A stretch of DNA of 32,090 bases from Candidatus Kuenenia stuttgartensis (lineage in GTDB: Bacteria; Planctomycetota; Phycisphaerae; Sedimentisphaerales; CAMDDF01), in assembly GCA_945890885.1 (NCBI GenBank), contig CAMDDF010000010.1:1-32090 (forward strand), in the 5' to 3' direction. The notes beneath the pieces are model-generated. The model worked only from the letters and a program-made list of their open reading frames with translations. It searched no databases and was not told the DNA's origin. A program made the translations under genes and the position numbers. Position 1 is the stretch's first letter, and each line of letters opens with the position of its first letter. This document shows, piece by piece, positions 688 through 31,315 of this stretch.

Positions 688-1160
688 TTATTGCGATTGG
701 CCGCATTGCTCCGTAAAGCACCATCTAAAAAAAAATGCCGGGCTGACGTTGAATAGCTCGCAGAGAATACGTATATGGGCCTTACTCAATTCTCTTTGCC
801 CTTTGAGTACTCGCCAGCCAAGATGGCGATCTCCCATTAATTTTCCGAAGTCAGAGGTTTTCATCACATTTTCTTCGAGCAGGGACTAATAGCTTCAATT
901 GGCGTTACTTCACCGATATCTGTGGCAAAATGTTTTTGTTCATAGCTGTCTATCACAAGACTTAAACTTTCAAGATAATCCTGCTGATCTTTATTCAGGA
1001 TATTTTGTGATGCAAGCAGTGATGCCGCCTTGACCGCTCTGTTGTGGTCTTTTTTATTATGGATGGGGCGAAGCGGGCAAAGTTTGGCCTGAAGTCCAAG
1101 CCATGTTTCAGGTATTGCCGGAGCACCACCAAGCTTTTTCACTTCCCACACCTTCTTCAT
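688..1160 (-). pseudogene. HigA-like antitoxin, frameshifted
   Basis: The first 90 or so residues (starting MKKVWEVKKLGG) read like the N-terminus of HigA-type antitoxins, which precedes a helix-turn-helix. The frame then stops at about 864. Shifting by one base near 880-890 restores a continuation reading LLEENVMKTSDFGKLMGDR and GWRVLKGQRELS, the expected HTH, ending near SPAFFF. A second probable slip lies at a run of nine T/A, where homologs would stop; the open frame runs on to a TAA at 688-690. The ATG overlaps the stop of the upstream RhuM-Fic gene (ATGA), behind a GGAGG ribosome site. It is either a true pseudogene or carries homopolymer sequencing errors. No HigB partner is visible. 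Confidence 0.6.
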
Positions 1161-2161
1161 AAAAGCCTCCGATTTAAAATGCTAATCACTACTCGCTTGA
1201 TTGTTTCCATCTCTTCCGGATTACTTTCTGCAATAAAAAGGGTGACTGCCGCCAGCCCTTCATTGCTCAGTTTTGGATTCCCTTCGGCATCATAAAGAAG
1301 ATTATTCTGGTTAAGAAAATACAGAAAGATGGATGCTGCAATCCGTTTATTGCCATCGGTGAAGGAGTGATTTTTAACGATAAGATACAGTAGCATAGCC
1401 GCTTTTTCTTCGATGGACGGGTACATTTCCTGACCAGAAAAGCTTTGGTATATTTGACTGACTGAACTTATAAAACTGCCATCTTTTGGCCTGCCAAACA
1501 GATATGATACAAACTGTTTTTTCATGTGATCTATTATTTCGAAACATTCTTCAGCTGTAATGCGAACTGCCGGCTTTTGTGTTTTACCGCCTGCATCAAG
1601 TTTTTCATGGTCATAATCATCAAGTATGCCGAGTCCGCCGGAAAAGTCAGCCAAAAATGAAACGAGCGATGTTGCCTGCTCAAGAGACTCTACCTGATTC
1701 TTCAAACTACGCTCTATAATTCGCAAACTCGACTTTAGAAGCTCAATCTCTTCTGTTTTTTCTCTAAGCCGTCGTTCGTTGATTGTGAATCCTTTGCTCA
1801 AGTGCTCTTTAAGAATGCGATTTGCCCAAATCCTGAATTGTGTACCACGTTTGGAATTGACGCGATACCCGACGGATATAATCATATCAAGATTGTAATA
1901 AAGGACCTGCCTGGTTATTTGTCTTCCACCTTCTGTCTGAACATGTGCAAATTTTGCACATGTTCCAGATTCGGGCAATTCATCGGTTTCTAAGATGTTT
2001 TTAATGTGTTTAACGATTGATGTACGATCAGTTTCAAAGAGTTCAGCTAACTGGTACTGATTGAGCCAAAGCGAATCATTTTCCATGCGAACAGAAATTT
2101 CTGGAGCCCCGTTCTTCAGCTTGAAAATTACGACCTCACCTCTATTGTTGAGCTTACTCAT
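1157..2161 (-). CDS. RhuM family protein with C-terminal Fic domain
   Basis: This 334-residue protein has two parts. The N-terminal ~130 residues match the RhuM/virulence-protein family (LWLNQYQLAELFETDR, VGYRVNSKRGTQFRIWAN), a KilA-N/Bro-like DNA-binding type fold. The C-terminal part carries a complete Fic motif, HSFTDGNKR, expected to bind ATP phosphates and catalyse AMPylation or a related transfer. A coiled region (about residues 125-170) links them. Such RhuM-Fic genes are often embedded in type I restriction-modification loci, which fits the hsdM remnant just upstream; its remnant stop overlaps this ATG. The reading frame is intact although both neighbours are broken. Target unknown. 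Confidence 0.85.
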   Translation of the reverse strand: MSKLNNRGEVVIFKLKNGAPEISVRMENDSLWLNQYQLAELFETDRTSIVKHIKNILETDELPESGTCAKFAHVQTEGGRQITRQVLYYNLDMIISVGYRVNSKRGTQFRIWANRILKEHLSKGFTINERRLREKTEEIELLKSSLRIIERSLKNQVESLEQATSLVSFLADFSGGLGILDDYDHEKLDAGGKTQKPAVRITAEECFEIIDHMKKQFVSYLFGRPKDGSFISSVSQIYQSFSGQEMYPSIEEKAAMLLYLIVKNHSFTDGNKRIAASIFLYFLNQNNLLYDAEGNPKLSNEGLAAVTLFIAESNPEEMETIKRVVISILNRRLL

Positions 2162-4140: not shown

Positions 4141-4995
4141 ATGGCATGGCGACCAAACGATCAATTTATCAGTGGTGAGTTAGATAACTCAGAACACGGC
4201 AGGATTATCGGCTGGATGAAATTTGCCGGGATGAAGGAAGAAGTTGCTTTTGATTTGGAAGGAGACTTTCACAGGGATATCAGAGGCGCTAAAATCCGAC
4301 TCAAAGGTGACGGTCAATCACAGGATCAGGCAAAAGCTGCAAAGTATATGGAGGGATTTTGTATTCTGCAGACAGGTGTGGCTGGCGATATTACCGCAGG
4401 ACTGCCGCCCCATGATTACGGGCTGCCAGGTGAAGGCTATGTCGAATGGTTTTCTGATGATAATGGCAGAGTTGTGCTAGAATTTAGCTCAGATCAGATT
4501 GAGATTTTAACACCGCCGATACCATTCTGTGAATCAGACCCTATCGACAGAAACAAGCAGGCACAGAATATGGCAAAGTTTCTGTGTGGTCTTGCATCAG
4601 ATTTGGGTCTTCCGCAAAGCAATGTTATTGCAGTTGGAAATACCGCTGCTGTTGAAAAAGCAAAGATAGTCTTAGCCAACGATAAAATCCGCGGCATGAA
4701 ACTACTGACGAAGGAAATCCGTGAACAACTACCCCCCTTATACAGTCAGGATGGCAAAGGCGGCAAGGCAATCGCTTATGTAAAGTTTTTCATTGGTTCG
4801 TGGACCTGGCATGCAACGGAATTTGATGGCGAAGATACATTTTTCGGTCTGGTTGAGGGCTTTGAGAAAGAACTGGGATATTTCAGTCTTTCCGAGATGG
4901 AAAACACCAAAGGCCCAATGGGGTTGCCGATAGAGCGAGATTTGCATTTTAAGCCGAAGATGCTTGAAGAAATTGCTCCAGAGATGTTCGGGTAA
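4141..4995 (+). CDS. DUF2958 domain protein
   Basis: The 284-residue product has an unassigned N-terminal half (about 1-140, acidic, with a [17 protein letters not shown] stretch). Its C-terminal half matches DUF2958: [13 protein letters not shown], then [20 protein letters not shown] and GYFSLSEME, ending near [18 protein letters not shown]2958 is common on conjugative elements and phages; its biochemical role is unknown. The start follows AGAGAGGTG. The stop TAA overlaps a downstream ATG (TAATG), so translation may be coupled to the next gene. This is the first gene of the long plus-strand block leading to the ubiquitin-like system, and the N-terminal extension relative to bare DUF2958 proteins is notable. 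Confidence 0.75.
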
Positions 4996-5488: not shown

Positions 5489-5731
5489 ATGAGAATTTTA
5501 TTCATTAACAACAATGGTTCCGGCTATGCTGATTATGTCAATATTGCTGAGAATACAACTATCAATCAGTTTTTTGCTATCAAGATGCAGAATCAGCAGG
5601 AAAGTGATTATCTGATCCGTGTCAATCGCCAGCCCGTTCCCAAAGACTATTGTCTTCAGGAAGGCGACCGCGTTACGATAACTCCAACGAAAATTGATGG
5701 TGCGAAAAGAAGTGAGAAGTTAGAAGTGTGA
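5489..5731 (+). CDS. Ubiquitin-like beta-grasp modifier (PRTRC-C/MoaD-ThiS type)
   Basis: This 80-residue protein fits a ubiquitin-like fold: strand 1 ILFINNNGSGY, strand 2 DYVNIAENTTINQFF, helix and YLIRVNRQPV, then LQEGDRVTITPTKIDGA. The phrase GDRVTITPT-K-I/V-x-G-A is what I remember from the C-termini of bacterial Ub-like modifiers in ThiF/E2/JAB operons. The Gly-Ala at 71-72 would be the natural end. Here eight extra residues (KRSEKLEV) follow, encoded by the start of a purine-rich repeat, so the JAMM protease would have to trim it before E1 activation. AAAGGAAA precedes the ATG. The E2, JAMM and E1 genes follow directly, strongly supporting the role. Confidence 0.75.
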   Translation: MRILFINNNGSGYADYVNIAENTTINQFFAIKMQNQQESDYLIRVNRQPVPKDYCLQEGDRVTITPTKIDGAKRSEKLEV

Positions 5732-5753
5732 AGTGAAAAGTGAAAAGTAAAAA
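5705..5753. repeat. Purine-rich GAAGTTA repeat, copy 2
   Basis: This tract contains GAGAAGTTAGAAGTGTGAAG followed by two AAGTGAAA units. It shares AAGTTAGAAGT with copy 1. It overlaps the last codons of the modifier gene and supplies its stop codon. Confidence 0.6.
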
Positions 5754-5818
5754 CTTTTACGGCATCTGCTTATGTTTGATTATAGGCAGGTGCCATTTTT
5801 TATGCATAGGAGAATTTT

Positions 5819-6838
5819 ATGGAAAATCAAAAAAAACTTATACAGCTGTCAAACATGCTGCTGGACAGTTTATTCGAGCTTAAAAAGGCAAGATTGCGGC
5901 AGATCCAGGATGTTATGGAGGGGTTTGGCACCAGGTGCTCTGATACTACGAAAAACTCCCATCTTTTTTATACAGCAGTTGAAAGAAATTGGCTAAGCAG
6001 TGCAGAGCAGGTCATATCGAGGGTAAGCAGGAACCTCACGGATTTTTCATGTTACCTGCAGAGATTCAAAGAGCTTGTCAATGCTGATGAAACAGTGCTG
6101 CCAAAACTTTCTGATATTTATGCAGAGCTTATCCAGATCGAGCGGGAGTTCGGCGAGATAAAATTCGATTCAAACGAAAAAGCCATCTCTGTAATAACTG
6201 AGCCGATCACTCTAAATGATATCCCGCTGGGACCATTTGAAGTAAAACTGTCTATTGATCAGATAAGCAGGCTCTATAATGATACCCCTTACTCGATAAT
6301 TGCATTAGAACCTAATCCGGCAGGATCAAATGAGGAGGTTACTCATCCGCATGTAAGCTCAGAAAGGCTCTGTGAAGGTGATGGCCATGTTGCTATTCGC
6401 AGCGCTATAGAGCAGGGCAGATTCTGCGACTTTTTCACAATGGCGGTAACTATCCTTCAGACCTACAACCCCGGTAGTCCATACATTTCATTGGATGAAT
6501 GGCAAGGAACATCCTGTTATGACTGCGGCTGCACGGTATCTAATGATGACTGCTACTACTGCGAATATTGCGACAGGGATTACTGCAGCAGTTGCAGCAG
6601 CTATTGCCAGAGGTGCGATACAACGGTTTGCCTGGGGTGTTCTTATGAGTGTCCCTCATGTGATGAGCTGGTCTGTCATAACTGTACCGAAAAATGCAAG
6701 GAATGTGATGGAACGTTCTGCAAGAATTGCTTAGATGAAGAAAGATTATGTCAAAACTGCCAGGAGCAGAGAAAGGAAAGCGAAAATGAAGAACAGGAAC
6801 AGCTCTCAGAAGAATCAAAAGCCGATGCTGAGGTTTAG
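5819..6838 (+). CDS. E2-like (UBC fold) protein fused to cysteine-rich treble-clef/RING-like tail
   Basis: The product has three parts. Residues 1-120 are helical. Residues ~135-230 look like a UBC fold: a strand with YSIIALEPNPAGS, then THPHVS (176-180), then LCEGDG with the likely catalytic Cys185, then FCDFFTMAVTILQTYNPGSPY, matching the order HPN, active Cys, helix and PxxP-like segment of E2 enzymes. Residues 233-314 hold about 26 cysteines in repeated CxxC units (CYYCEYCDRDYC, CPSCDELVCHNC), like linked binuclear treble clefs, which are E3-like. An acidic tail follows. AGGAG precedes the ATG. The ORF overlaps the JAMM gene by about 50 nt. Joining E2 and RING-like functions in one chain would let it conjugate without a separate ligase. 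E2 assignment is by motif order, not by search. Confidence 0.7.
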   Translation: MENQKKLIQLSNMLLDSLFELKKARLRQIQDVMEGFGTRCSDTTKNSHLFYTAVERNWLSSAEQVISRVSRNLTDFSCYLQRFKELVNADETVLPKLSDIYAELIQIEREFGEIKFDSNEKAISVITEPITLNDIPLGPFEVKLSIDQISRLYNDTPYSIIALEPNPAGSNEEVTHPHVSSERLCEGDGHVAIRSAIEQGRFCDFFTMAVTILQTYNPGSPYISLDEWQGTSCYDCGCTVSNDDCYYCEYCDRDYCSSCSSYCQRCDTTVCLGCSYECPSCDELVCHNCTEKCKECDGTFCKNCLDEERLCQNCQEQRKESENEEQEQLSEESKADAEV

Positions 6839-7544
6839 TCCGACAGCGTGGGCGAAACTACTATTTATGCGTGATGTAACAGATAATGAAGTCGGCGGTT
6901 TCGGGATAACACAGGCAAATGATCTACTGTTTGTTACAGATTTTGCCCTGGTAAAGCAGAGGGTAACTTGTGTTTCAGTATCATTTGAAGATGAGTCTGT
7001 GGCAGACTTTTTTGAGGATCAGGTTGAAGCCGGCAGGAAACCGGAGCAGTTTGCCCGTATCTGGCTGCATACACATCCGGGAGATTCCCCTGAGCCGAGT
7101 ATGACCGATGGGGCAACTTTTGCCAGGGTATTTGGAACCTGCGACTGGTCCGTAATGTGCATTGTGGCGCAGGATAGTGGAACCTTTGCGATGCTGAGAT
7201 TCAATGTCGGACCAGGCGGTGAGGTAAAGATACCTGTTTATGTTGATTACAGCTATGAATTTGATGCCGCCAATTTTGAACAATGGACACAGCAGTATCA
7301 GGCGAATGTGATTGTGGATGAGATTTTCAAGCAGGTAAGTAAGCCTGGACATGCAGTTTCGCATAAACAACCATCTGCCGATCTATTTGGTGAGAAACAG
7401 TCAGCCGGCATTCCACAGTTTATAAGTGAGGATTTACTTTCAGAGATTGACAGGATGGAGCCTTTTGAGCGGGAAGTGTTTATGGAAGAACTGGCTATAA
7501 GAAGCGAATTCTGGGATGAAGAAAGTGAGGTGTCATATGGATAA
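6786..7544 (+). CDS. JAMM/MPN (JAB) metalloprotease, likely deubiquitinase-like
   Basis: The JAMM zinc signature is complete: upstream Glu in NEVGGFG (E35 in this start), then IWLHTHPGDS with H95 and H97, and SMTDGATF with D108. The family cleaves isopeptide bonds or trims modifier tails. I chose ATG 6786 (AGGA upstream); the track start at 6735 would overlap the E2 gene by over 100 nt. A C-terminal region (about 160-252) contains a helix-rich acidic part with unknown role. The stop overlaps the E1 gene start. Its likely jobs are to mature the modifier, whose GA is followed by eight residues, and to remove it from targets. Confidence 0.85.
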   Translation: MKNRNSSQKNQKPMLRFSPTAWAKLLFMRDVTDNEVGGFGITQANDLLFVTDFALVKQRVTCVSVSFEDESVADFFEDQVEAGRKPEQFARIWLHTHPGDSPEPSMTDGATFARVFGTCDWSVMCIVAQDSGTFAMLRFNVGPGGEVKIPVYVDYSYEFDAANFEQWTQQYQANVIVDEIFKQVSKPGHAVSHKQPSADLFGEKQSAGIPQFISEDLLSEIDRMEPFEREVFMEELAIRSEFWDEESEVSYG

Positions 7545-8190
7545 CAGGTTCTCAAGACAGGCAGATATTGTGCCAAGAGAGCGAATACTTGACTGTAAAG
7601 CTACAGTTATTGGTGTTGGCGCTATTGGAAGACAGGTTGCAATACAGCTGGCAGCTGTAGGAGTACCCCAAATCCGGATTATTGATTTTGACCATGTGGA
7701 AATCTCCAATTTGGCATCGCAGGGATATCTCCAGAAAGATTTAGGCAGTCCCAAAGTCGATGCAACTGCTGATTTTTTAAGGCAGATAAACAATGACCTC
7801 AGCGTTGAGATAGTATTTGAACGTTTTAAACGCTCAACACTTTCCGGTACCTGCGTTTTCTGCTGCGTTGATAAAATTGAGACACGCAGGCACATATGGG
7901 ATGCCGTAAAAGACAAGGTAAACTTCTTTGTTGATGGGCGAATGTCTGCTGAAGTTTTGCGTGTAATAACCGCCTGTGATGAAAAAAGCAGACAGTACTA
8001 TCCGCAGACACTCTTTGCCGCCCAGCAGGCCCATACAGGTCCCTGTACAGCTAAAACTACGATTTACTGCGCCAATATAGCGGCAGGTTTTATGCTGGCC
8101 CAGTTTACCAAGTATCTTCGGATGCTGCCGGTTGATCCTGATATCCAGATCAATCTTTTGGCCTGGGAGTTAAATGTCGGCAGTTGTTAA
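7537..8190 (+). CDS. E1-like ThiF/MoeB family activating protein
   Basis: An N-terminal Rossmann nucleotide-binding loop (VIGVGAIGRQ, residues 24-33) is followed by IIDFDHVEISNLASQGY, the ThiF/E1 adenylation signature, and a lysine at 73. The candidate thioester cysteine is C170 in HTGPCTAKTT. No CxxC zinc pairs are present. At 217 residues it is shorter than MoeB/ThiF (about 250), as in PRTRC ThiF proteins. I chose ATG 7537, with GTGAGGTG upstream, overlapping the JAMM stop. It should adenylate the modifier and pass it to the E2-like protein. A terminator follows, so E1 closes the transcription unit. Confidence 0.85.
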   Translation: MDNRFSRQADIVPRERILDCKATVIGVGAIGRQVAIQLAAVGVPQIRIIDFDHVEISNLASQGYLQKDLGSPKVDATADFLRQINNDLSVEIVFERFKRSTLSGTCVFCCVDKIETRRHIWDAVKDKVNFFVDGRMSAEVLRVITACDEKSRQYYPQTLFAAQQAHTGPCTAKTTIYCANIAAGFMLAQFTKYLRMLPVDPDIQINLLAWELNVGSC

Positions 8191-8201
8191 AATTAACCAG
8201 A

Positions 8202-8243
8202 GCTTAGCGATGGTAATGTTTGGCTGTCGCTAAGCCAATTTTT
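8202..8243 (+). terminator. Intrinsic terminator after the E1 gene
   Basis: GCTTAGCGA (8202-8210) pairs perfectly with TCGCTAAGC (8227-8235) and is followed by CAATTTTTA. The hairpin lies 11 nt past the E1 stop. Confidence 0.7.
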
Positions 8244-8261
8244 ACTAAATGAGGTGTAACC

Positions 8262-8534
8262 ATGTCAAAACAGAAAACCAATGATAATCGAATAACAACA
8301 ATTGGACAGCTTAAAGAGCTGGCAAAGGATGAAAGTGGCCTGGATTGTTTCATCATGCTAAATGGAGGCCTGAGAAGCTCTAAATATATCAGGTATTACC
8401 CTGATGATAACAGCTTTTTTGTGCTGAATCTCATTGATGACAGCCAGCAGGAACTAACTGAAAGCCAGATTCTTGACGGTGCTTATTCCAATATCGGCCA
8501 GGCAATGAAAAAGGGAAGTTTAATAATGGATTAA
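8262..8534 (+). CDS. Conserved accessory protein of mobile elements (90 aa)
   Basis: The sequence reads ITTIGQLKELAKDESGLDCF then LNGGLRSSKYIRYYPDD and FVLNLIDDSQQELTE. I recall similar short proteins on conjugative elements, without a function. The start follows TGAGGTG. It lies just after the E1 terminator and runs with the two following genes, separated by 17 and 11 nt, as a second short operon. A fold with alternating strands is likely; no catalytic residue stands out. Confidence 0.7.
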   Translation: MSKQKTNDNRITTIGQLKELAKDESGLDCFIMLNGGLRSSKYIRYYPDDNSFFVLNLIDDSQQELTESQILDGAYSNIGQAMKKGSLIMD

Positions 8535-8551
8535 ATTTATGAGGTGAAAAA

Positions 8552-9211
8552 ATGTATTACAAAGAAGTTGATAAACGGTATAGGGAGGTAATGGCAGCTT
8601 TCCTGAAGAAGCATTACAGGTACCACACCATGAACAGCTGGAATAAATCAAACAGCTACGCAAATAACATCAAGCTTTACAACATTGATAAACCTGCTGA
8701 CATTGACAGCAACAAATGTTGGGAAATGATTGGGGTCGCTCAGTGGCAGGAAAAGTTAAGCAGCCTGCTGGAGGATTTTGGCAAAAAGCATAACTGGCTA
8801 TGGCAGGCTGGTATCAATGGCAGAAGCGGCGGATATGTTGTTCTTTACAGAGGCGGCATAAAGCCCAGCGGCTATAAAAGCTACTGCATACATTGCGGCC
8901 AGAAAAACTATCAGGCTGTTGTTGACGGTGAAGTTGGTATCTGCGGCAGATGTGATGCCAGGGCAAGAGTTAATTTCAAGCAGACACATATGCAGGTCTT
9001 TACCTTACCAGGCAAGGAAGTTGATATGCATTGGGATTTTGATGGCTGGACTTTGAGCGATCTGCGGGAAAGAGTTGAGTTGGTTCAGGATTTTGACATG
9101 CTCAGTGATGATCTCGTGGCAGCGTATTTTGATATATGCCGGAACTACCGTATTACTGAAGAAGAAATCCTTGTACCAAAAACGATCAAAGTATTGGAAC
9201 CCATAGTTTAG
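8552..9211 (+). CDS. Zinc-ribbon-containing element protein (219 aa)
   Basis: About residues 1-105 form an aromatic-rich domain (RYHTMNSWNKSNSYANNIK, WLWQAGINGRSGGYVVLY) that I recall from phage and conjugative-element hypothetical proteins. Residues ~111-137 hold a zinc ribbon, YCIHCGQ and ICGRCDARAR (two CxxC pairs 21 residues apart). The C-terminal part is helical and acidic (WTLSDLRERVELVQDFD). GAGGTG precedes the ATG. It is the middle gene of a three-gene operon. Nucleic-acid or protein binding through the ribbon is plausible; no enzyme motif is visible. Confidence 0.7.
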   Translation: MYYKEVDKRYREVMAAFLKKHYRYHTMNSWNKSNSYANNIKLYNIDKPADIDSNKCWEMIGVAQWQEKLSSLLEDFGKKHNWLWQAGINGRSGGYVVLYRGGIKPSGYKSYCIHCGQKNYQAVVDGEVGICGRCDARARVNFKQTHMQVFTLPGKEVDMHWDFDGWTLSDLRERVELVQDFDMLSDDLVAAYFDICRNYRITEEEILVPKTIKVLEPIV

Positions 9212-9222
9212 GAGAATTGAAT

Positions 9223-9543
9223 ATGCTGTATATAAGATTGTTTCACGGCAGATGCGACCCAGATCAGCAAATGGATGACTGGGGAAGCGATGGTCCGGTA
9301 TTTGGACCTTATGAATTTGTGCACACTACTTATGTATCTTTCTTGAGATTAGGCAGGCAAGATGGAATTTGTGATGAGCTGCATGTTCACGAGGATATGG
9401 TCTATTATAATGGGATCTACTATGGTGACTGGAGTGTGTTCGATGCAGCAGTGTTCGAAAAAACAAAATTCCAGATAGCTGTTTTCCAGCAGGATAAAGC
9501 AAATATGCCGGAAAATACTGCACCAAAACTTCCAATTTACTAA
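9223..9543 (+). CDS. Hypothetical protein (106 aa)
   Basis: I do not recognise the family. ATG 9223 is preferred to the TTG at 9217 because GGAG lies 8 nt upstream. The product has an N-terminal LYIRLFHGRCDPDQ, a FGPYEFVHTTYVSFLRLG segment and several aromatic residues (MVYYNGIYYGDWSVFD). It begins 11 nt after the zinc-ribbon gene, so it belongs to that operon and is the last gene before the terminator at 9657. Confidence 0.65.
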   Translation: MLYIRLFHGRCDPDQQMDDWGSDGPVFGPYEFVHTTYVSFLRLGRQDGICDELHVHEDMVYYNGIYYGDWSVFDAAVFEKTKFQIAVFQQDKANMPENTAPKLPIY

Positions 9544-9656
9544 GCGGACCAGGCGGACCAATCGCTCACTAGTCCAGACTATACACAACCAATCAGCCGA
9601 CCAAACGAGAAATCCTTATCGAACCTGCCTGTTCTTCTGCTGACGAGTTGACATGG

Positions 9657-9688
9657 GGGGCCTCGGCAAGGCCCCTCATTAAATTTTT
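9657..9688 (+). terminator. Intrinsic terminator closing the plus-strand accessory block
   Basis: GGGGCCT (9657-9663) and AGGCCCC (9669-9675) form a 7-bp GC stem with a 5-nt loop, followed by TCATTAAATTTTTA. It separates the ubiquitin-like/accessory block from the archaeal-flavoured block. Confidence 0.7.
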
Positions 9689-9740
9689 ATAGTCATGCCA
9701 ATTATTGCGATCGAATTCTACACAATCCACTACCGATAAC

Positions 9741-9748
9741 TTTAAATA
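9741..9748 (+). promoter_or_regulatory. TATA-like box before the 69-aa gene
   Basis: TTTAAATA is centred about 31 nt before ATG 9776, preceded by CGATAAC. No Shine-Dalgarno site precedes the ATG (TGTCATTATAAA), so a near-leaderless mRNA is expected if the box works as an archaeal TATA element. A sigma-70 reading is less natural at this spacing. Confidence 0.45.
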
Positions 9749-9775
9749 CTCTCAATTCTTTATTGTCATTATAAA

Positions 9776-9985
9776 ATGACATCAGAAAATTTAAACCAAA
9801 CCATTGAAAAGAGTCTCCATACTCTTGAAGAGATCTGCGAGAATACCCGTGCCATACGTCGTGTGGTAAACAGGATACTTGACCATCTTCATGAGCAGGA
9901 AGCTGCTGAAGAGTTCGATGAGGATTACGACATAGATGAGATCGACTGGGATAAGCTCGATGAACGAGATGATATGTTCAGTTAG
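9776..9985 (+). CDS. Small acidic helical protein (69 aa)
   Basis: I do not recognise it. The N-terminal half is helical with coiled-coil character (LNQTIEKSLHTLEEICENT, RRVVNRILDHLHEQE). The C-terminal third is very acidic (EEFDEDYDIDEIDWDKLDE). This is the first of three short co-oriented genes that converge on the Orc1/Cdc6 gene. The start is supported by a TATA-like box at -31 and the absence of an alternative Met. Acidic small proteins next to replication genes can be partners or inhibitors, but that is only inference. Confidence 0.6.
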   Translation: MTSENLNQTIEKSLHTLEEICENTRAIRRVVNRILDHLHEQEAAEEFDEDYDIDEIDWDKLDERDDMFS

Positions 9986-10002
9986 ACCGCAAAGTTTTTA
10001 TA
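9986..10002 (+). promoter_or_regulatory. BRE/TATA-like promoter before the 109-aa gene
   Basis: TTTTTATA (9995-10002) is centred 25-26 nt before ATG 10024, with a purine-rich CGCAAAG just upstream like an archaeal BRE. There is no Shine-Dalgarno site before the ATG (CACATCGATATTGT), consistent with a leaderless transcript. Confidence 0.5.
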
Positions 10003-10023
10003 GAGTATTCACATCGATATTGT

Positions 10024-10353
10024 ATGCGTAAACCTAATCCAGAAACTGAGACCCTGCTTGGCGATATGAGGAATTCATTAGATCGTATCAAAGCATTGAC
10101 AGCATGGCAGCAGCTCAAGCAATCAGAGCAATATCCGGGCCGCCCGCCGGCATTTGTGATGAGCGATCCAACTTGTACAGACCTCAATAATGAGTATTCC
10201 CGCATTATGGCGACATGTTCGCAATTACAGACGGTTTTTAACGCATCAAAAGTTCCTACAATAACAATTGGGCGAACTCGGCGTGAATATTTCAGGCTTA
10301 AACAGGAATTAAATGCCCTTAATGTGCCGGCACGGCTCAAAGGCCTCTTATAA
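10024..10353 (+). CDS. Hypothetical helical protein (109 aa)
   Basis: No known family recognised. Features are a helical N-terminus (ETLLGDMRNSLDRIKALTAW), a Pro-rich turn (YPGRPPAFVMSDP) and a basic C-terminus (TIGRTRREYFRLKQEL). It is separated from the next gene by only 2 nt (stop 10353, ATG 10356), so translation is probably coupled. It has its own TATA-like box. A structural or replication-accessory role is possible from the neighbourhood only. Confidence 0.6.
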   Translation: MRKPNPETETLLGDMRNSLDRIKALTAWQQLKQSEQYPGRPPAFVMSDPTCTDLNNEYSRIMATCSQLQTVFNASKVPTITIGRTRREYFRLKQELNALNVPARLKGLL

Positions 10354-10355
10354 AG

Positions 10356-10928
10356 ATGGGATGGTTCCATATATTCAAAAGACGCCAGCGTAAAAGGAAA
10401 GCTCACAAATCCAGTCATAACCCCAGCGTCCGCAGTTTAGTTGAAAGGCTCCGATCTGATACTTCTTCGCTGCAGCAGCAATTACAGATGATCCAGACCA
10501 CGGTAGATAAGCACGGTGTTTCACTTAATGAGCATACCACATTATTTGAAGATCACAAAGTGAGAGTTGCAAAACTTGAGCAATTGGTCGCCCAGCCGGC
10601 GACTATTGTACCTGCCGAGAGTCCACGCCTGATTAGTCGCTCCCAAACATCTGCTGAATCACCGCTGTCGCGGCAAAAATATGACGTTAATAACTTTTCA
10701 CCACAGGAAAAACGAATCCTGCAGCTATTCTTTGAGCATCAGGATATGGCACTTTCATATACTGATCTGTCACAGGCACTGGGCAAGAGCCCGTTGACCG
10801 TCAAAAACCAGTTACACGAGATACGACTCAAAGCAGACCTTTTTACAAAGACCATCGGTGCTGATAATCGTAACCGTTTCAAGCTCAGGGACGATGTCAG
10901 ACTTCAAAAGTATCTTAATCTCGGTTAG
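10356..10928 (+). CDS. Coiled-coil protein with C-terminal winged helix (190 aa)
   Basis: The N-terminus is strongly basic (FKRRQRKRKAHKSSH). Residues ~25-85 form a coiled coil (LVERLRSDTSSLQQQLQMIQ). After a Ser/Pro linker, residues ~112-185 look like a winged helix-turn-helix: FSPQEKRILQLFFEHQ, ALSYTDLSQALGKSPLTVKN, then a wing with DNRNRFKLRDD. Such architecture suits a DNA-binding dimer, perhaps a regulator or origin-binding partner. The gene is translationally coupled to the 109-aa gene and converges on Orc1/Cdc6, with about 66 bp between the stops. No ligand-binding domain is seen. Confidence 0.7.
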   Translation: MGWFHIFKRRQRKRKAHKSSHNPSVRSLVERLRSDTSSLQQQLQMIQTTVDKHGVSLNEHTTLFEDHKVRVAKLEQLVAQPATIVPAESPRLISRSQTSAESPLSRQKYDVNNFSPQEKRILQLFFEHQDMALSYTDLSQALGKSPLTVKNQLHEIRLKADLFTKTIGADNRNRFKLRDDVRLQKYLNLG

Positions 10929-10994
10929 TCGCCCGACTAGCTGCGGGTGATCGACTAATTTAGTTGATGGATCGACTAACTGCAATTAATCTGG

Positions 10995-17524: not shown

Positions 17525-19192
17525 TCACTGAGTACCAGCTGTCGCTTCAAGAGCTGCTTTTCCTTTTTCTGTAAGGTGAGTTAGTGCTTGTCTGCCGATT
17601 CTGGTCGTTTCAATTCGTTCTTCTATGAGTAAAAACTTTAAGGCTGTTGTTTTTAATTTCTGGCCTTGCCGTACTGATAGGCCCAGTCGCTTGTATCGTG
17701 CGGCGACACCGCTTTCTGGAGAGTTCTGGATATCCTTTAGGAAGTATATAAGTGGATTAACAACTGCGGGGCCGGCGGCAGGGAGTTTTTCTTTTGCGGG
17801 GTAAAACGACGAATTTTGCGATGCCGATAATGAAGTGTGCTGCATATGCTCCCGAATATAATCATCGGTGATAGTCCCCTTATCTATGATAAATTCCGGC
17901 ACTTTGACCTGAAATGCCCGAGGGATACGTCCTTGAAGCTTTATAATTGCCTCACCCACTTCCAGGCTGCCGAGTAGGTCTTTTTCCTTATCGAGCAAAA
18001 GGCACTGGGCCATGGCGGTTATATCTGTTTTATGTTTAAGATTCATGCATATCGTTGCGTAGGTATTGCCGAGTGCCGGTAGACTGATCTTTGATGGATG
18101 CTGATCAAGTAGAATAAGGCTTTCTCCGAATTCTCTGATTTCTCTAAAGATAATCTCCATAACAGATTGGCCGCCTACTAAACTCCTTCTTTCATCGGAT
18201 AATAAATGATGGGCCTCCTCAATTAGTACACAATGCCGAAAAGTCTCTCTTTTGTTTTCTGTCATACGCTTGTGATGCAGCCACAACAGCAGAGCCTCTA
18301 CAAAAAACACTTTATCGGATTGCGTAAGCGCATCCAATTCCAGAATTACGGAACTATTGAGGATATGATCCAGACTCTTATTGCTGTGCGTATTAAACAA
18401 TGTATCCATATCGCCAAAACACAGCGATGACAGTGCCCTTAGAGTTGATGACAACCAGCCAGATTCTCTGCCACGCAGATCCATACTTTTGGCCTTTAAA
18501 AGAACATCCTTAAATGTTGGCCAGCTTGTTACAAGATTATCATAAACCCCAGCTTCCTCATAGACTGCGTCGACCGCCTGCTGTAATAAGTATAAGACTC
18601 CATTGCCGAGGCAATAGGAATGGGCGATAACTTCATTTAATTTCTTCAACCATGTCTTGGGGCTGGTACCCTCGGGTGGAATGAGGGGATTAAAAGCAAA
18701 TGGCGTGATATCTCTGCCGATGGTGTAGACCTCAACATCCTTGAATTCAGGTTGTGATATTAGATCTCGATAGTTTCGCTTCCAGTCAAATACCAAAAAA
18801 GGCTTTCCTTTTTTCTTAAGTTCCCTGAGTAAAACAAAACCCACGTTGGTTTTTCCTGCTCCAGATCTGCCCAGTACCGCGACATGTTGTATCCATTCAT
18901 CTTCACGAAGACCAAATTCATAAAGATTTTTGCCTGCATAGTGAACCATACCGATCGGGTACTGACCTTCGGCCTGTTCCTTTGTTGGCGGAATCAGGTC
19001 GGCTTCGGGCTGTTCGAGTTTTTGAGGGATATGTTTTGCCACTGCCAGTTCCAGATACTTTTGGATTTGCTGTTTACCCTCTGTATCTTCTGCGCAGTAT
19101 GCTGCAAATACCTGATCCATTGTGGGGCCGAGGATGGGCTTGAGCTTGAGGCACAATTCTCTGACAAGTGTGGAATTATCCCTGTCCGCCAT
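17525..19192 (-). CDS. HerA/DUF87-type hexameric ATPase with C-terminal winged helix
   Basis: Walker A is GRSGAGKT (about residues 108-115), followed by PFLVFDWKRNY, a typical HerA/VirD4 strand. Walker B is CVLIEEAHHLL, followed by EIIFREIREFGESLILLDQH, a HerA sensor-like segment. The C-terminal ~75 residues form a winged helix (RLGLSVRQGQKLKTTALKFL, RIGRQALTHLTEKGKAAL). HerA-type motors pump or translocate DNA. ATG 19192 follows GGAGGG and overlaps the upstream gene by 17 nt; the track's TTG at 19213 is less likely. No NurA nuclease is adjacent, so a mobile-element transfer or segregation role is more likely than end resection. Confidence 0.85.
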   Translation of the reverse strand: MADRDNSTLVRELCLKLKPILGPTMDQVFAAYCAEDTEGKQQIQKYLELAVAKHIPQKLEQPEADLIPPTKEQAEGQYPIGMVHYAGKNLYEFGLREDEWIQHVAVLGRSGAGKTNVGFVLLRELKKKGKPFLVFDWKRNYRDLISQPEFKDVEVYTIGRDITPFAFNPLIPPEGTSPKTWLKKLNEVIAHSYCLGNGVLYLLQQAVDAVYEEAGVYDNLVTSWPTFKDVLLKAKSMDLRGRESGWLSSTLRALSSLCFGDMDTLFNTHSNKSLDHILNSSVILELDALTQSDKVFFVEALLLWLHHKRMTENKRETFRHCVLIEEAHHLLSDERRSLVGGQSVMEIIFREIREFGESLILLDQHPSKISLPALGNTYATICMNLKHKTDITAMAQCLLLDKEKDLLGSLEVGEAIIKLQGRIPRAFQVKVPEFIIDKGTITDDYIREHMQHTSLSASQNSSFYPAKEKLPAAGPAVVNPLIYFLKDIQNSPESGVAARYKRLGLSVRQGQKLKTTALKFLLIEERIETTRIGRQALTHLTEKGKAALEATAGTQ

Positions 19193-19742
19193 AGAGACCC
19201 TCCATACCGGCAAAAAGAGAATATCTTTGTTTTGCGCCTCTGTAGGTGCTGGCAGTCTCGAATAGTTTCTCTCTTAGTTCGGCGGTATCTTTCCAAAATG
19301 CCAGTTCTTCTTCTCGTTTGGCGGATTCGAGTTGGAGCAGCTGTGTTTCCAGACTTGACATTCGTTTGGTTCTGTCAGGATTTCTGTTAATGATAACGCC
19401 GTAAAGCGACCCCTGGATTTGCAGATCACGATGCTGAATTTCATCAATATGTTTTTTGTGAAGCTTGCACCGCTCATAGAATAGATTGGCAAGGTGCTGG
19501 ATGCCGACATGCTGCTGTTTCATCTCATTGCCGAATATCTGCTGTGAGATATTGGCGGTCTCATTGACAATAGGAATAAGTGCCTCCTGCAATAATTCAG
19601 CGTCGGGCTTTAACCTGTCAAAATAGCCGTTGGCAGGCCATGAAAGAACCCGAGGATAAGTTACGTCGATTTTTTGGGAAGCATAGCTGCTGTTTTGTTG
19701 AAAATAAAGGTTCCTCAATTCGTATGTTTTGTTCGGCATCAT
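19176..19742 (-). CDS. Partner protein of the HerA-like ATPase (188 aa)
   Basis: I do not recognise a family. ATG 19742 (MMPNKTYELRN) is preferred to the upstream track start because GGAG precedes it. Features are a conserved-looking VTYPRVLSWPANGYFDRL, then long helices (IVNETANISQQIFGNEMKQQ, SLETQLLQLESAKREEELAF) predicted to form a coiled coil. The stop overlaps the ATPase start, so the two are translationally coupled and probably interact. An adaptor or membrane-distal partner is possible. It contains no transmembrane segment or nuclease motif that I can see. Confidence 0.65.
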   Translation of the reverse strand: MMPNKTYELRNLYFQQNSSYASQKIDVTYPRVLSWPANGYFDRLKPDAELLQEALIPIVNETANISQQIFGNEMKQQHVGIQHLANLFYERCKLHKKHIDEIQHRDLQIQGSLYGVIINRNPDRTKRMSSLETQLLQLESAKREEELAFWKDTAELREKLFETASTYRGAKQRYSLFAGMEGLYGGQG

Positions 19743-25980: not shown

Positions 25981-27120
25981 ATGGAAAACATTTCTGTTCA
26001 GCATGGGCCTGATCACGTGGAGTTGGCGGATGTCAGGCAAATCGAGCTTGATAAAATTATAGTCTCTGACTTTTGCTGTCGGAATAGCGAAGGTGATGAT
26101 CTGTCTTGCCTTATGGACTCCATTGTGCAAGAGGGGCTTTTACAATATCCCAATGCTATGGATAATGGCGATGGCACCTTTTTGTTGTTGTGCGGGCGTC
26201 GAAGATATTTAGCGTGCAAAACCCTTGGTTGGCAGCGAATACCGTGTGTGGTGAGGCAAAAAGACCAGAGGGATTTGATCTTTATCGCGCTGACGGAGAA
26301 TTTGCAGCGGTTGGCCTCAAATCCTGTTGATGAAGCGATATTTTTAGGTAAAGTCAAGAAAGAATTTGGCTATACCGAAGAGGAGCTTGGCCGTAGAACC
26401 GGCTTTCAACAAAGTGGGGTTAACGAACGGCTGTCTATTCTGGAGTTGCCTCGTGAAATTCTTATGGAAGTGAGCGCCGGTGAAGCTGGTCGGCTTAAGT
26501 TCACGCATGCCGTGGCTTTGGCCTATCTTATGAAAACTAACCGGAGTCAAAAGGAAAGTGAAATCAGAGATCTTGCGGTAAAAGTGAGAAGATGTCAACT
26601 TACGACGATTGAACTGAAAATGCTTGTAAAGTTAATTACCGGTGGTGGGTATGACCGTTTGCCGGACAAACTTAGAATGCTTCTGTTTAACCATAAATAT
26701 ATGACTGCCAAAGTGGCTAATCTTTATTTGGGCATAGAACAGATATGCCAGGAAAAAGAAATGCAGAAGTATCGCATTGTTGTTCCGACAATTAGAACCA
26801 GGATCGCAGATGTTATCTGCAAAGCCGTTAAATCCAAGTTGCTTTATGACAGAATTAAACAGCAAGTAATTGATTTGATTCAACATGAGGCAAAATCAGC
26901 GGATAGCGGTGCAGATGCCGGCTTAAATGTTAAAACAGTAGCACATCATTTTTCCAAGCTGGTAGATGAAATCAATATCAGCCGGGAAAAGATCATCGCA
27001 TTATCTAAAGATAATCCGCAACAGTTGGCAAATTTCAAGAGAATTGCACAAAACCTCATAAAACAGCTGAAAGAGTTGCTGGCAAACGTAGAGCCAGATA
27101 CGAATAATACCGGTAATTAA
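25981..27120 (+). CDS. ParB/Spo0J-family partition protein
   Basis: The N-terminal CTPase/Srx-like domain shows RQIELDKIIV, then LLLCGRRRYLACKTLGWQRI (the GERR-like box, here CGRR) and LTENLQRLASNPVDEA (the ENxxR box). A central HTH follows (YTEEELGRRTGFQQSGVNER). The C-terminal ~150 residues are helical and differ from chromosomal ParB, ending in a coiled coil (AQNLIKQLKELL). GAAGGAG precedes the ATG. No ParA is in the window. It fits a plasmid or PRTRC-type element protein, supporting the idea that the region is or was an autonomous replicon. Confidence 0.85.
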   Translation: MENISVQHGPDHVELADVRQIELDKIIVSDFCCRNSEGDDLSCLMDSIVQEGLLQYPNAMDNGDGTFLLLCGRRRYLACKTLGWQRIPCVVRQKDQRDLIFIALTENLQRLASNPVDEAIFLGKVKKEFGYTEEELGRRTGFQQSGVNERLSILELPREILMEVSAGEAGRLKFTHAVALAYLMKTNRSQKESEIRDLAVKVRRCQLTTIELKMLVKLITGGGYDRLPDKLRMLLFNHKYMTAKVANLYLGIEQICQEKEMQKYRIVVPTIRTRIADVICKAVKSKLLYDRIKQQVIDLIQHEAKSADSGADAGLNVKTVAHHFSKLVDEINISREKIIALSKDNPQQLANFKRIAQNLIKQLKELLANVEPDTNNTGN

Positions 27121-29239: not shown

Positions 29240-31315
29240 ATGGTACTAAAAAATAATGGTAATTCATTTGATAATTCCGGCCATCTAACGCCGCAGCAGA
29301 TACAGCAGATGCTCATGGATCCTGCCATAAGAGCCTGGGACAATACCAAACTCTGGCGTGCAGGCATAGCATTGATGAGAAATCCTTTTGATCATGTGCT
29401 TCAGGCTATCTTTGCGCATTTGCTCAGCAAGCAGCGGGAATTGTATGTTCTTAGCGGCAATCCATACTGGCCCAATTATCCGCCTATCGGCACTATCACT
29501 GGCTCAGCTGGCGACATTAAAGTCGGCAGCATGTTCGCTGGCGATCCCGTCGCCTTTTCTGCAAATCGGCTATTCTGCGGTACAGGCATATTTGCCCGCA
29601 TTGGTGCAGGTAAGAGTTCGTTTCTTGCCGAGCCGATCCGGCAGCTGATTGATCAAGATTATCTTGTGATCGTTTTTCAGCAGAAAGATGAGTACAATAA
29701 TTTTGCAACCGAGCCTGCGCTAGCTGGCAAAGTTCTTCCGCTGCGTGATAGCGAATGTATGATTTCTCCCTTTGAGCCAGCCATCGGTGTCTCCATGCAT
29801 GATCACAACAACTCTGTGATCGACACTATAGGCAGATGCTCTGGCCGCATGTACGCACAGCGACTAACGCTTGATCTTAATGACAAATACTCCAAAAAAC
29901 TGCCCAGTGGTTCTTATACTCCTCTTGATGTACTAATTAATATTCACGAAAATTTTGTACCTGGCAGGGGCTCCGTTGAAGCATATTATAAAGAGAGCAT
30001 GCTTTACGCACTTAGGGAGATACAGAAGACATTCGGTGGTATTTTTGACTACTACAGCAGCGATTTCCTGGAAAAAATCTTTAATCGTACGGGGTTGGTT
30101 GCAATTCAGTCTGGCGCTCCGCTGGCAGCATATACTTTTTTTGTGACCATTTTTATCCAATACATCTATTTGCTGCGAAAAGCCGCCAGGTTTACTGTCG
30201 GAACGTTCAAGAAAATCATCATCATTCTTGAAGATGCGACAATGATTACCGATGAAAAGGAGCTGGGCGGCACCTCTCCACTGACAAATCTGGCGTTTAC
30301 AGCCCGTGCTTATAATATCGGCATTGTTTATATCAATCATACAATTGCCACATCCGTTAGTCAGAAACTACTGTCGAATCTCGAAAACATTTTCCTGCTG
30401 GGACTGTCCGGTGAAGATCTTCGCCGAATTCAGCAATTGCTCAATTGTACGCCTGAACAGGCAAAGGTCATCCCTTTGCTTCAGCCAGGCCAGTTTGTCG
30501 CGTTGATACCATCCATGTGGCCAATGGCCGTATTGGGACAGTTCCCCTACAATCCTTCTCCGAGAAAACTGACTGAGGATGAGCGGCTAAAGATAGTCAG
30601 ATCGTTTCTTGGTACCGTCCGCACTGTAAAATCAGGCAGTCATAGATTGCCAATTATTGTTGTTCCGGCATCATCTGCCGCATCATCTGTACCTTCATTG
30701 AACTCCAACCAGATGCAATTTTTGATTCTTGCGGCAACTGGAAAACCGATGCCGCTGGGTAAGTTGTACGAAGTGATCGGACTTGCTCATCGCGATGGCA
30801 AAAAGATAGTCGATAGTTTGGAGCAGAAGGGCCTTATTCGCATATATGCTTTTTCAACGGGCAAAGTCGGCGGTAAGGTCAGTTTTGTCGAGGTTACTGA
30901 TGCCAGCTGGCGGATTCTGATTGCCAGAGGTTTTTCAAGGTCAAAGTCGCTCACCGGCGGGGGATTCCTGCACAATCTTGCAGCTACGCTCATTAACATT
31001 GCAGAAAAGAAGCGGGGCATGACGGTTAATTTTGAGATTGATCTTAAGGGTGTCAGGATCGATGTGGAATCACGGGACAATAAGAGCGGAAAGAGGGTGT
31101 TTATCAACATTGGTGTATCGAGCCCGCAGCGTGAGGCAGATGTTATTGAGAAGATTTTTGCAATGCCGGTAATGAACGGTAATCGTTTTGTTCTGGTGGG
31201 GCTTGATGGGCCGTTTACAAAGCAGGTAAAGGATATTCTGAAGAAAAAAGGATGGAAGAGCGATGCGTTAAATCGCCTTGAGGTGCGTGTAATTGCAGAT
31301 TTTATTGTCGATTAA
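29240..31315 (+). CDS. HerA/VirD4-like ATPase with winged helix and nuclease-like C-terminus (691 aa)
   Basis: Walker A is IFARIGAGKSSF (about residues 117-128), followed by LVIVFQQKDEYNNF. Walker B is IIIILEDAT (about 331-339), followed by NIGIVYINHT. A winged helix follows (LGKLYEVIGLAHRDGKKIVD). The last ~100 residues have a restriction-fold-like pattern, VNFEIDLKGVRIDVESRD then KRVFINIGVSSPQREAD and RFVLVGLDG, but the expected catalytic Glu/Lys are changed. There is no Shine-Dalgarno site; the start relies on coupling to the previous gene. The protein is likely a DNA- or protein-translocating motor of a transfer machine. It is clearly distinct from the HerA at 17525. Confidence 0.75.
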   Translation: MVLKNNGNSFDNSGHLTPQQIQQMLMDPAIRAWDNTKLWRAGIALMRNPFDHVLQAIFAHLLSKQRELYVLSGNPYWPNYPPIGTITGSAGDIKVGSMFAGDPVAFSANRLFCGTGIFARIGAGKSSFLAEPIRQLIDQDYLVIVFQQKDEYNNFATEPALAGKVLPLRDSECMISPFEPAIGVSMHDHNNSVIDTIGRCSGRMYAQRLTLDLNDKYSKKLPSGSYTPLDVLINIHENFVPGRGSVEAYYKESMLYALREIQKTFGGIFDYYSSDFLEKIFNRTGLVAIQSGAPLAAYTFFVTIFIQYIYLLRKAARFTVGTFKKIIIILEDATMITDEKELGGTSPLTNLAFTARAYNIGIVYINHTIATSVSQKLLSNLENIFLLGLSGEDLRRIQQLLNCTPEQAKVIPLLQPGQFVALIPSMWPMAVLGQFPYNPSPRKLTEDERLKIVRSFLGTVRTVKSGSHRLPIIVVPASSAASSVPSLNSNQMQFLILAATGKPMPLGKLYEVIGLAHRDGKKIVDSLEQKGLIRIYAFSTGKVGGKVSFVEVTDASWRILIARGFSRSKSLTGGGFLHNLAATLINIAEKKRGMTVNFEIDLKGVRIDVESRDNKSGKRVFINIGVSSPQREADVIEKIFAMPVMNGNRFVLVGLDGPFTKQVKDILKKKGWKSDALNRLEVRVIADFIVD

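Follow-up and report, generated by a model that had tools for sequence, protein, structure and literature searches.

Several types of prokaryotic operon for ubiquitin-like (Ubl) conjugation have been described. In class 6d of Iyer et al. (2006), genes for Ub-like, JAB, E1-like and E2-like proteins occur with one for an alpha-helical protein, and the E2 lacks a His before the Cys (PMC1779556). The operon of the archaeon Caldiarchaeum subterraneum comprises Ub, E1, E2 and Rpn11/JAMM, the last of which matures a C-terminally extended Ub with a GG terminus, and the system includes a separate small RING E3 (srfp) (PMC5654768, PMC6043591). Bacterial E1, E2 and JAB proteins also serve Ubl-type conjugation in Bil, Bub and cyclic oligonucleotide-based antiphage signaling (CBASS; Cap2/Cap3) systems, while RING tri-ligase systems, reported from planctomycetes among others, have E1, E2, JAB and Ubl together with a zinc component. 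In FtsH ternary systems, RING is encoded by a separate gene and Ubl is fused to E2 (PMC7159879). The present analysis concerns a cassette at 5489-8190 of contig CAMDDF010000010.1 (positions 1 to 32,090, the whole stretch of 32,090 nucleotides being termed the window), from a 2.14-Mb planctomycete genome deposited as Candidatus Kuenenia stuttgartensis and, judging by named relatives, belonging among Phycisphaerae-type Planctomycetota. Four plus-strand open reading frames (ORFs), some of which overlap, encode a Ubl modifier (ubl), an E2-like protein with a cysteine-rich tail, a JAMM metalloprotease and an E1-like enzyme, and we take these, with fair confidence, to form a self-contained, reversible Ubl-conjugation cascade in which the E2-like protein would be a hybrid of conjugating enzyme and adaptor.

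Like PRTRC or class 6d systems, the cassette is a single operon in which Ubl, E2, JAB and E1 are each encoded by a gene of their own, and has mobile-element-type neighbors such as DUF2958, whereas it contains neither a separate gene for an alpha-helical protein nor any conserved fifth gene, its E2 keeps the His before Cys that is missing from class 6d E2s (HPH being invariant) and this E2 bears a zinc-type array without counterpart in the class 6d description (PMC1779556). The E1 scored 29.9 bits against PRTRC_ThiF model TIGR03736, for which the cut-off is 144.75, and membership in PRTRC was rejected on the basis of this score, the HPH motif and the lack of an alpha-helical fifth gene, in agreement with an earlier annotation made from the sequence alone (the first-pass annotation), in which the cassette was held to differ from plain PRTRC. 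Resemblance to the Caldiarchaeum operon was evident from gene content and from the best structural matches of the modifier and JAMM protein given below, in contrast with the separate RING E3 and GG terminus of the archaeal system. Similarity to Bil, Bub and CBASS systems was noted at the level of E1 (BubCD, PADLOC E1-E2 and BilD), but the matched E1s of these systems sit in longer chains (BubCD, E1-E2) while the window E1 is a stand-alone protein, and the neighboring genes differ. We know of no zinc array on the E2s of these systems. The tri-ligase systems are alike in combining the four components with a zinc component; the FtsH ternary systems differ from the cassette in both their separate RING gene and their Ubl-E2 fusion. 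The cassette is best read as a new form of the known bacterial Ubl-conjugation systems, although Burroughs et al. (2011) may already have described it.

A complete Ubl/E2/JAMM/E1 system is well supported since the modifier was modeled as a beta-grasp protein, the E1 matched ThiF, the JAMM motif was invariant and E2 motifs aligned to those of classical E2s. Thus, the AlphaFold model of the modifier (predicted local distance difference test, pLDDT, 89) was a beta-grasp, as had been expected in the first-pass annotation, and the nearest folds in the PDB by Foldseek were Caldiarchaeum Ub (best row), SUMO and ThiS (probability 1.00, best E 9e-4). The E1-like protein scored 91.3 bits against ThiF model PF00899 (cut-off 28.1, E 6.7e-26), and its alignment contained invariant GxGxxG, Arg14, Asp57, Lys80 and Asp119 (numbered from the start at 7516) as well as a 'CT' motif whose Cys (Cys170, which is Cys177 if counted from 7516) was likewise invariant. 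The E1 profile matched ThiF, UBA5/UBA7 and BubCD in the PDB and, in addition, PADLOC E1-E2 and BilD models. Residues of the JAMM motif, Glu plus HxHx7SxxD (E35, H95, H97, S105 and D108), were invariant in 23 sequences; the window protein fell under the cut-off of Prok-JAB (E 3e-4), a model matched by 22 of 23 relatives. With the JAMM family profile, archaeal and eukaryotic Rpn11 ranked first and the top PDB match was an archaeal Rpn11-like protein. A second Prok-JAB match was not found elsewhere in the genome of the window.

Assignment of the E2-like core to UBC is likely. In the AlphaFold model of this protein (pLDDT 88), the long helical N-terminus claimed in the first-pass annotation was apparent as predicted helices at residues 2-55 and 59-88 (DSSP), and residues 94-231 followed in the order helix, strands, HPH loop, Cys185 and helices, which matches that of UBC. 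Cys185 lay directly after THPHVSSERL, so that the earlier placement of this residue after a THPHVS box was reproduced. HPH176-178 and Cys185 were invariant in E2-like relatives and YNPxSPY nearly so, the Asn in the HPN-type motif of classical E2s being replaced by His in the window protein. In a comparison with human E2s by hhalign, GPFEVKL fell opposite GxFxLxI, HPH opposite HPN, Cys185 opposite the catalytic Cys and YNPGSPY opposite PNPDDPL at a score of 19.4, which was reached by none of 150 column shuffles (mean 12.4, standard deviation 2.2, maximum 18.8), the target being four human housekeeping E2 sequences used for alignment only. VIA-align rows for the E2 model fell mainly on the helical N-terminus instead of on the UBC core or tail. 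Prok-E2_B (PF14461) was unmatched in 99 planctomycete genomes, control genomes being equally blank.

The four adjacent or overlapping genes were found on the plus strand at the coordinates indicated in the first-pass annotation, with JAMM starting within the E2 gene (53-bp overlap) and E1 within the JAMM gene (8-bp overlap); starts at 6786 and 7537 were preferred over those at 6735 and 7516 from alignments of homologues (Table 1). The order Ub-E2-JAMM-E1 was kept across 23 loci in related genomes as well as in approximately 34 named loci, nearly all from Planctomycetota, these counts including loci truncated at contig ends; one named locus (L048) is labeled SAR324 and could represent a binning error. 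E1 and E2 occurred together in 15 of 17 genomes that carried E1; of the two exceptions, one E1 copy lay where its contig begins and the other was a remnant that contained stops. Ratios of nonsynonymous to synonymous substitution (dN/dS) relative to the nearest relative (L032) were 0.16 for E2, 0.13 for JAMM and 0.10 for E1, values being confined to these genes because dS of ubl was saturated, and all three genes are by this measure under purifying selection. Four-gene synteny in 23 loci and low dN/dS argue that the cassette genes are not chance ORFs.

Table 1. Location of cassette features and of the adjacent DUF2958 gene in the window
Feature	Position	Strand	Details and evidence
ubl modifier gene	5489..5731	+	80 aa; ORF, weak ThiS-like Pfam matches, AlphaFold, 33-sequence alignment
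Hairpin and ATTTTTT between ubl and E2 gene	5761..5794	+	Terminator scan, conservation, covariation
E2-like gene	5819..6838	+	339 aa; helical N-terminus, UBC-like core and cysteine array; ORF, AlphaFold, alignments
Predicted N-terminal helical hairpin of E2-like protein, residues 2-88	5822..6082	+	DSSP of model
UBC-like core, residues 94-231	6098..6511	+	HPH176-178, Cys185 (6371-6373), YNPGSPY216-222; alignment, hhalign, Foldseek
Zinc-binding-type cysteine array, residues 233-314	6515..6760	+	Ten CxxC pairs, 20 invariant Cys
JAMM/JAB metalloprotease gene	6786..7544	+	252 aa; alternative start 6735
E1-like adenylating enzyme gene	7537..8190	+	217 aa; alternative start 7516
Terminator-like hairpin after E1 gene	8202..8235	+	13 pairs, then T-run; z -3.85
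DUF2958 protein gene	4141..4995	+	PF11171 1.4e-12; outside core cascade

The tail that follows the UBC-like core consisted mostly of four tandem 15-residue units, CxxC-x4-CxxC-x3, with two outer knuckles, and the 20 Cys of its ten CxxC pairs were invariant in 18 relatives. Of the "about 26 cysteines in treble-clef-like units" proposed in the first-pass annotation, the number held for the whole protein, 22 being located in the tail, while the units proved to be tandem CxxC repeats rather than demonstrable treble clefs; the opinion that an E2 with multiple zinc-type units is unusual was judged right. The tail appears zinc-binding in character and would provide five sites if each were formed by four Cys. 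Exact spacing was kept in 29 of 36 relatives, a few others having fewer CxxC pairs and one viral copy having more, and this variation in length suggests a modular scaffold.

Gly71-Ala72, in place of a C-terminal Gly-Gly, was invariant in 33 of 33 aligned modifiers, and was followed by an extension of variable length (8 residues in the window modifier) except in the modifier of locus L041, which terminates exactly at Ala72. Together, these findings suggest that the activated end of the modifier may be Gly-Ala. A Gly-Gly C-terminus is usual, though not universal, among Ubl modifiers. A Gly-Ala end is plausible since, among the bacterial cGAS proteins on which the E1-E2 protein Cap2 acts, some have alanine as a conserved C-terminal residue (PMC10097602).

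A single terminator had been claimed for the four genes. A strong terminator-like hairpin was indeed present 12 bases downstream of the E1 gene (0 of 200 shuffles folded equally well), but a second hairpin with a T-run occurred between ubl and the E2 gene. The position of this second hairpin was kept in most loci and, among 22 aligned sequences, 87% of cells paired and changes on both sides were seen in 11 of 13 pairs, values that were reached by 0 of 500 shuffles, whereas pairing was 39-51% when the partner was shifted by 1-3 bases. The hairpin is likely a partial terminator or attenuator and, because it would halt part of transcription after ubl, the modifier is probably made in excess over its enzymes.

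Relatives of these genes were noted in viruses and in a further planctomycete lineage. Tailed E2s occurred among phage-type genes on two viral contigs, one with exonuclease and primase/helicase genes (L066) and the other with RNA ligase, DprA-like and HNH nuclease genes (L068). A third, 106-kb viral contig (L069) carried E2, JAMM and E1 at 7374-10952, this E2 being aligned at 97.4% probability and devoid of a zinc tail. In planctomycete lineage G474 (L111, 3132-6281; L112, 9102-12002), a longer E2, aligned at 97.8% probability and ending in a different Cys-rich tail, accompanied a JAB-type protease and E1. Xanthomonas phage PhiXhv-12 (L118, 1742-5618) encoded E1 beside an 892-aa HPH...CLG protein with a Cys-rich end, for which the E2 match was weak (E 0.0027), as well as a 140-aa protein ending in GG, and the group is a possible phage Ubl system. 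Related E2s thus do not all carry the zinc tail, and Cys-rich tails may have originated repeatedly. Among cultured large phages, the E1 of PhiXhv-12 is annotated as a thiamine biosynthesis protein, and matches were found in PhiXhv-15, PhiXhv-16 and Erwinia phage Ep032. E1 was also shared by crAss-like phages (E 2e-20 to 1e-14), although the top-scoring phage E1 (4e-21) came from an unclassified member of the Caudoviricetes whose genes are arranged in the same order; these crAss-like phage genes were rejected as the same system on finding that the proposed E2 and Ubl failed to align with window proteins. In a tree of E1, the planctomycete copies grouped with two viral-contig copies (support 95/86), many internal forks being unresolved. 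A terminase model was unmatched in four viral records, which are possibly fragments.

Some further details of the viral loci were recorded. The L069 cassette included a second E2-like protein (RHPYVSSSGGICFGDS), with a tail-fibre-like gene and NAD synthetase nearby. In two crAss-like phages of the Steigviridae (L117 and L119), E1 was annotated as thiamine biosynthesis and came after a metalloprotease gene (Prok-JAB 0.0034 for L119), and the E1 of L116 occupied the same position.

In the proposed cascade, JAMM would remove the extension that follows the invariant Gly-Ala of the modifier, the E1-like enzyme would adenylate the modifier carboxylate and then carry the modifier on its invariant Cys, and Cys185 of the E2-like protein would receive the modifier and hand it over to targets. 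The cysteine array would act as a zinc-stabilized repeat adaptor that docks targets or partners, which is the weakest step of the scheme, and might also order E2~modifier in such a way that a separate ligase is superfluous. JAMM would also take the tag off, and partial arrest of transcription at the covarying hairpin would let the modifier outnumber the enzymes.

Several points weigh against this proposal. The best four Foldseek rows for the E2 model, although all were E2s, as expected for the UBC fold sought around Cys185 in the first-pass annotation, were weak (E 0.19-0.26). The curated E2 families Prok-E2 and UQ_con were unmatched in 36 members by Pfam at E 0.5 and in NCBIfam, so that the profile search suggested earlier failed for Prok-E2 as it had, by sub-cut-off score, for PRTRC_ThiF. 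The grounds on which an adaptor or E3-like role may be attributed to the tail are its fusion to E2 and its cysteine pattern. A conflict role is suggested by context, yet an element boundary was not found around the cassette, the cassette also occurred in chromosomes of complete genomes, and a scan of 15 stretches revealed a tRNA gene in just one.

Of 98 genomes from the order, 15 contained the E2, and the UBC-like core was detected in 15 of 392 genomes sampled across the phylum, one complete genome having as many as six copies. This patchy, multi-copy distribution together with the phage-borne relatives suggests a role in conflict or mobile-DNA upkeep rather than housekeeping, candidate though unproven roles being mobile-element or phage conflict or proteostasis. 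It is conceivable, if somewhat unlikely, that tagging in a PRTRC-like manner serves the upkeep or transfer of a plasmid or an integrative and conjugative element and is not directed against foreign proteins. Besides the occurrence of the cassette, its surroundings accord with such maintenance, given that the window contains genes for DUF2958, ParB and HerA/TraG-like proteins, the first of which is the usual upstream neighbor in Phycisphaerae loci, and the neighbors seen in other clades; in a Pirellulales-type clade, DUF1257-like, AAA+ ATPase, DUF3150-like and small genes precede Ub-E2-JAMM-E1, which closes the operon, and a DUF6573 gene is also among the neighbors. However, PRTRC models failed, neither E2 nor E1 was matched in 72,556 plasmid records, and the window ORFs scanned included neither relaxase nor integrase.

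That the tail is a genuine E3, i.e., related to RING or treble-clef domains and able to activate, in cis, the E2~modifier thioester of a one-chain E2-E3 ligase, is unlikely. The direct fusion of tail to UBC-like core that is shared by essentially all members would suit such a ligase, as would weak profile similarity of the tail to the zinc modules of B-box, FYVE, TFIIH p44, TRIM21 and RNF4 (E 0.003-0.1), but RING and Prok-RING families of Pfam were unmatched in 36 members at E 0.5, and Pfam searches of the tails yielded only scattered weak FYVE, B-box-like and Siva matches, with no RING or treble-clef model reached consistently. Moreover, the presumed ligands are all Cys, the 15-residue repeats are tandem and vary in number, and the tail-less E2 of phage relative L069 implies that a tail is not necessarily required for conjugation. 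An adaptor or binding scaffold thus fits at least as well as a RING, given the lack of RING matches, the all-Cys ligands and the variable number of repeats. What stood of the earlier claim for an E2 and an E3-like tail in one chain was the fusion of a cysteine tail to E2, whereas the ligase role, without a RING match, is putative.

A ThiS/MoaD-like sulfur-carrier pathway for a cofactor or thiolated product, with the E2-like protein as a non-conjugating partner, is very improbable since, although E1 scored highest against ThiF/MoeB models and the modifier had weak ThiS-like Pfam matches, the modifier has GA instead of GG, the ThiF/MoeB-type zinc CxxC was not present in the alignment of E1 relatives, JAMM and E2-like partners occur, no cofactor genes are nearby and there are several copies per genome. 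Returning to the conjugation cascade, we tentatively propose that one chain may combine E2 with a target-selecting or ligase module built from expandable zinc repeats and act on a Gly-Ala modifier kept in excess by a conserved attenuator.

Other genes in the surroundings of the cassette were also noted. A RhuM-like and Fic domain protein is encoded upstream in the window (1157-2161, minus strand), which also contains genes for a HerA/TraG-like ATPase (17525-19213, minus strand), ParB (25981-27120) and a weakly HerA-like protein (29240-31315, DUF87 under cut-off); the last three genes give the window a mobile-element or defence-island flavor. A GHKL ATPase gene, located approximately 3.8 kb upstream of the cassette in 12 loci, was absent from the window. 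In a complete 8.3-Mb planctomycete genome (G330; L096-L101), each of six cassettes ended a DUF1257-like/AAA+/DUF3150-like operon, and the proximity of an AAA+ ATPase to a Ubl system could hint, purely by analogy, at an unfoldase role.

The E2-like proteins constitute a family without annotation in the Pfam and NCBIfam copies searched. If the proposed reading is true, the cassette would amount to a bacterial cascade reduced to four proteins, with the selection of targets built into E2 and amenable to testing in vitro, and fusion of zinc-repeat arrays to E2s would be the way in which prokaryotes dispensed with a distinct E3. If the E2s of G474 and possibly of Xanthomonas jumbo phages are counted, prokaryotes would have resorted to such fusions repeatedly in place of stand-alone RING ligases. 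The Gly-Ala end of the modifier probes the strictness of the Gly-Gly rule, and the phage-borne relatives would place a tagging system within the contest between phage and bacterium.

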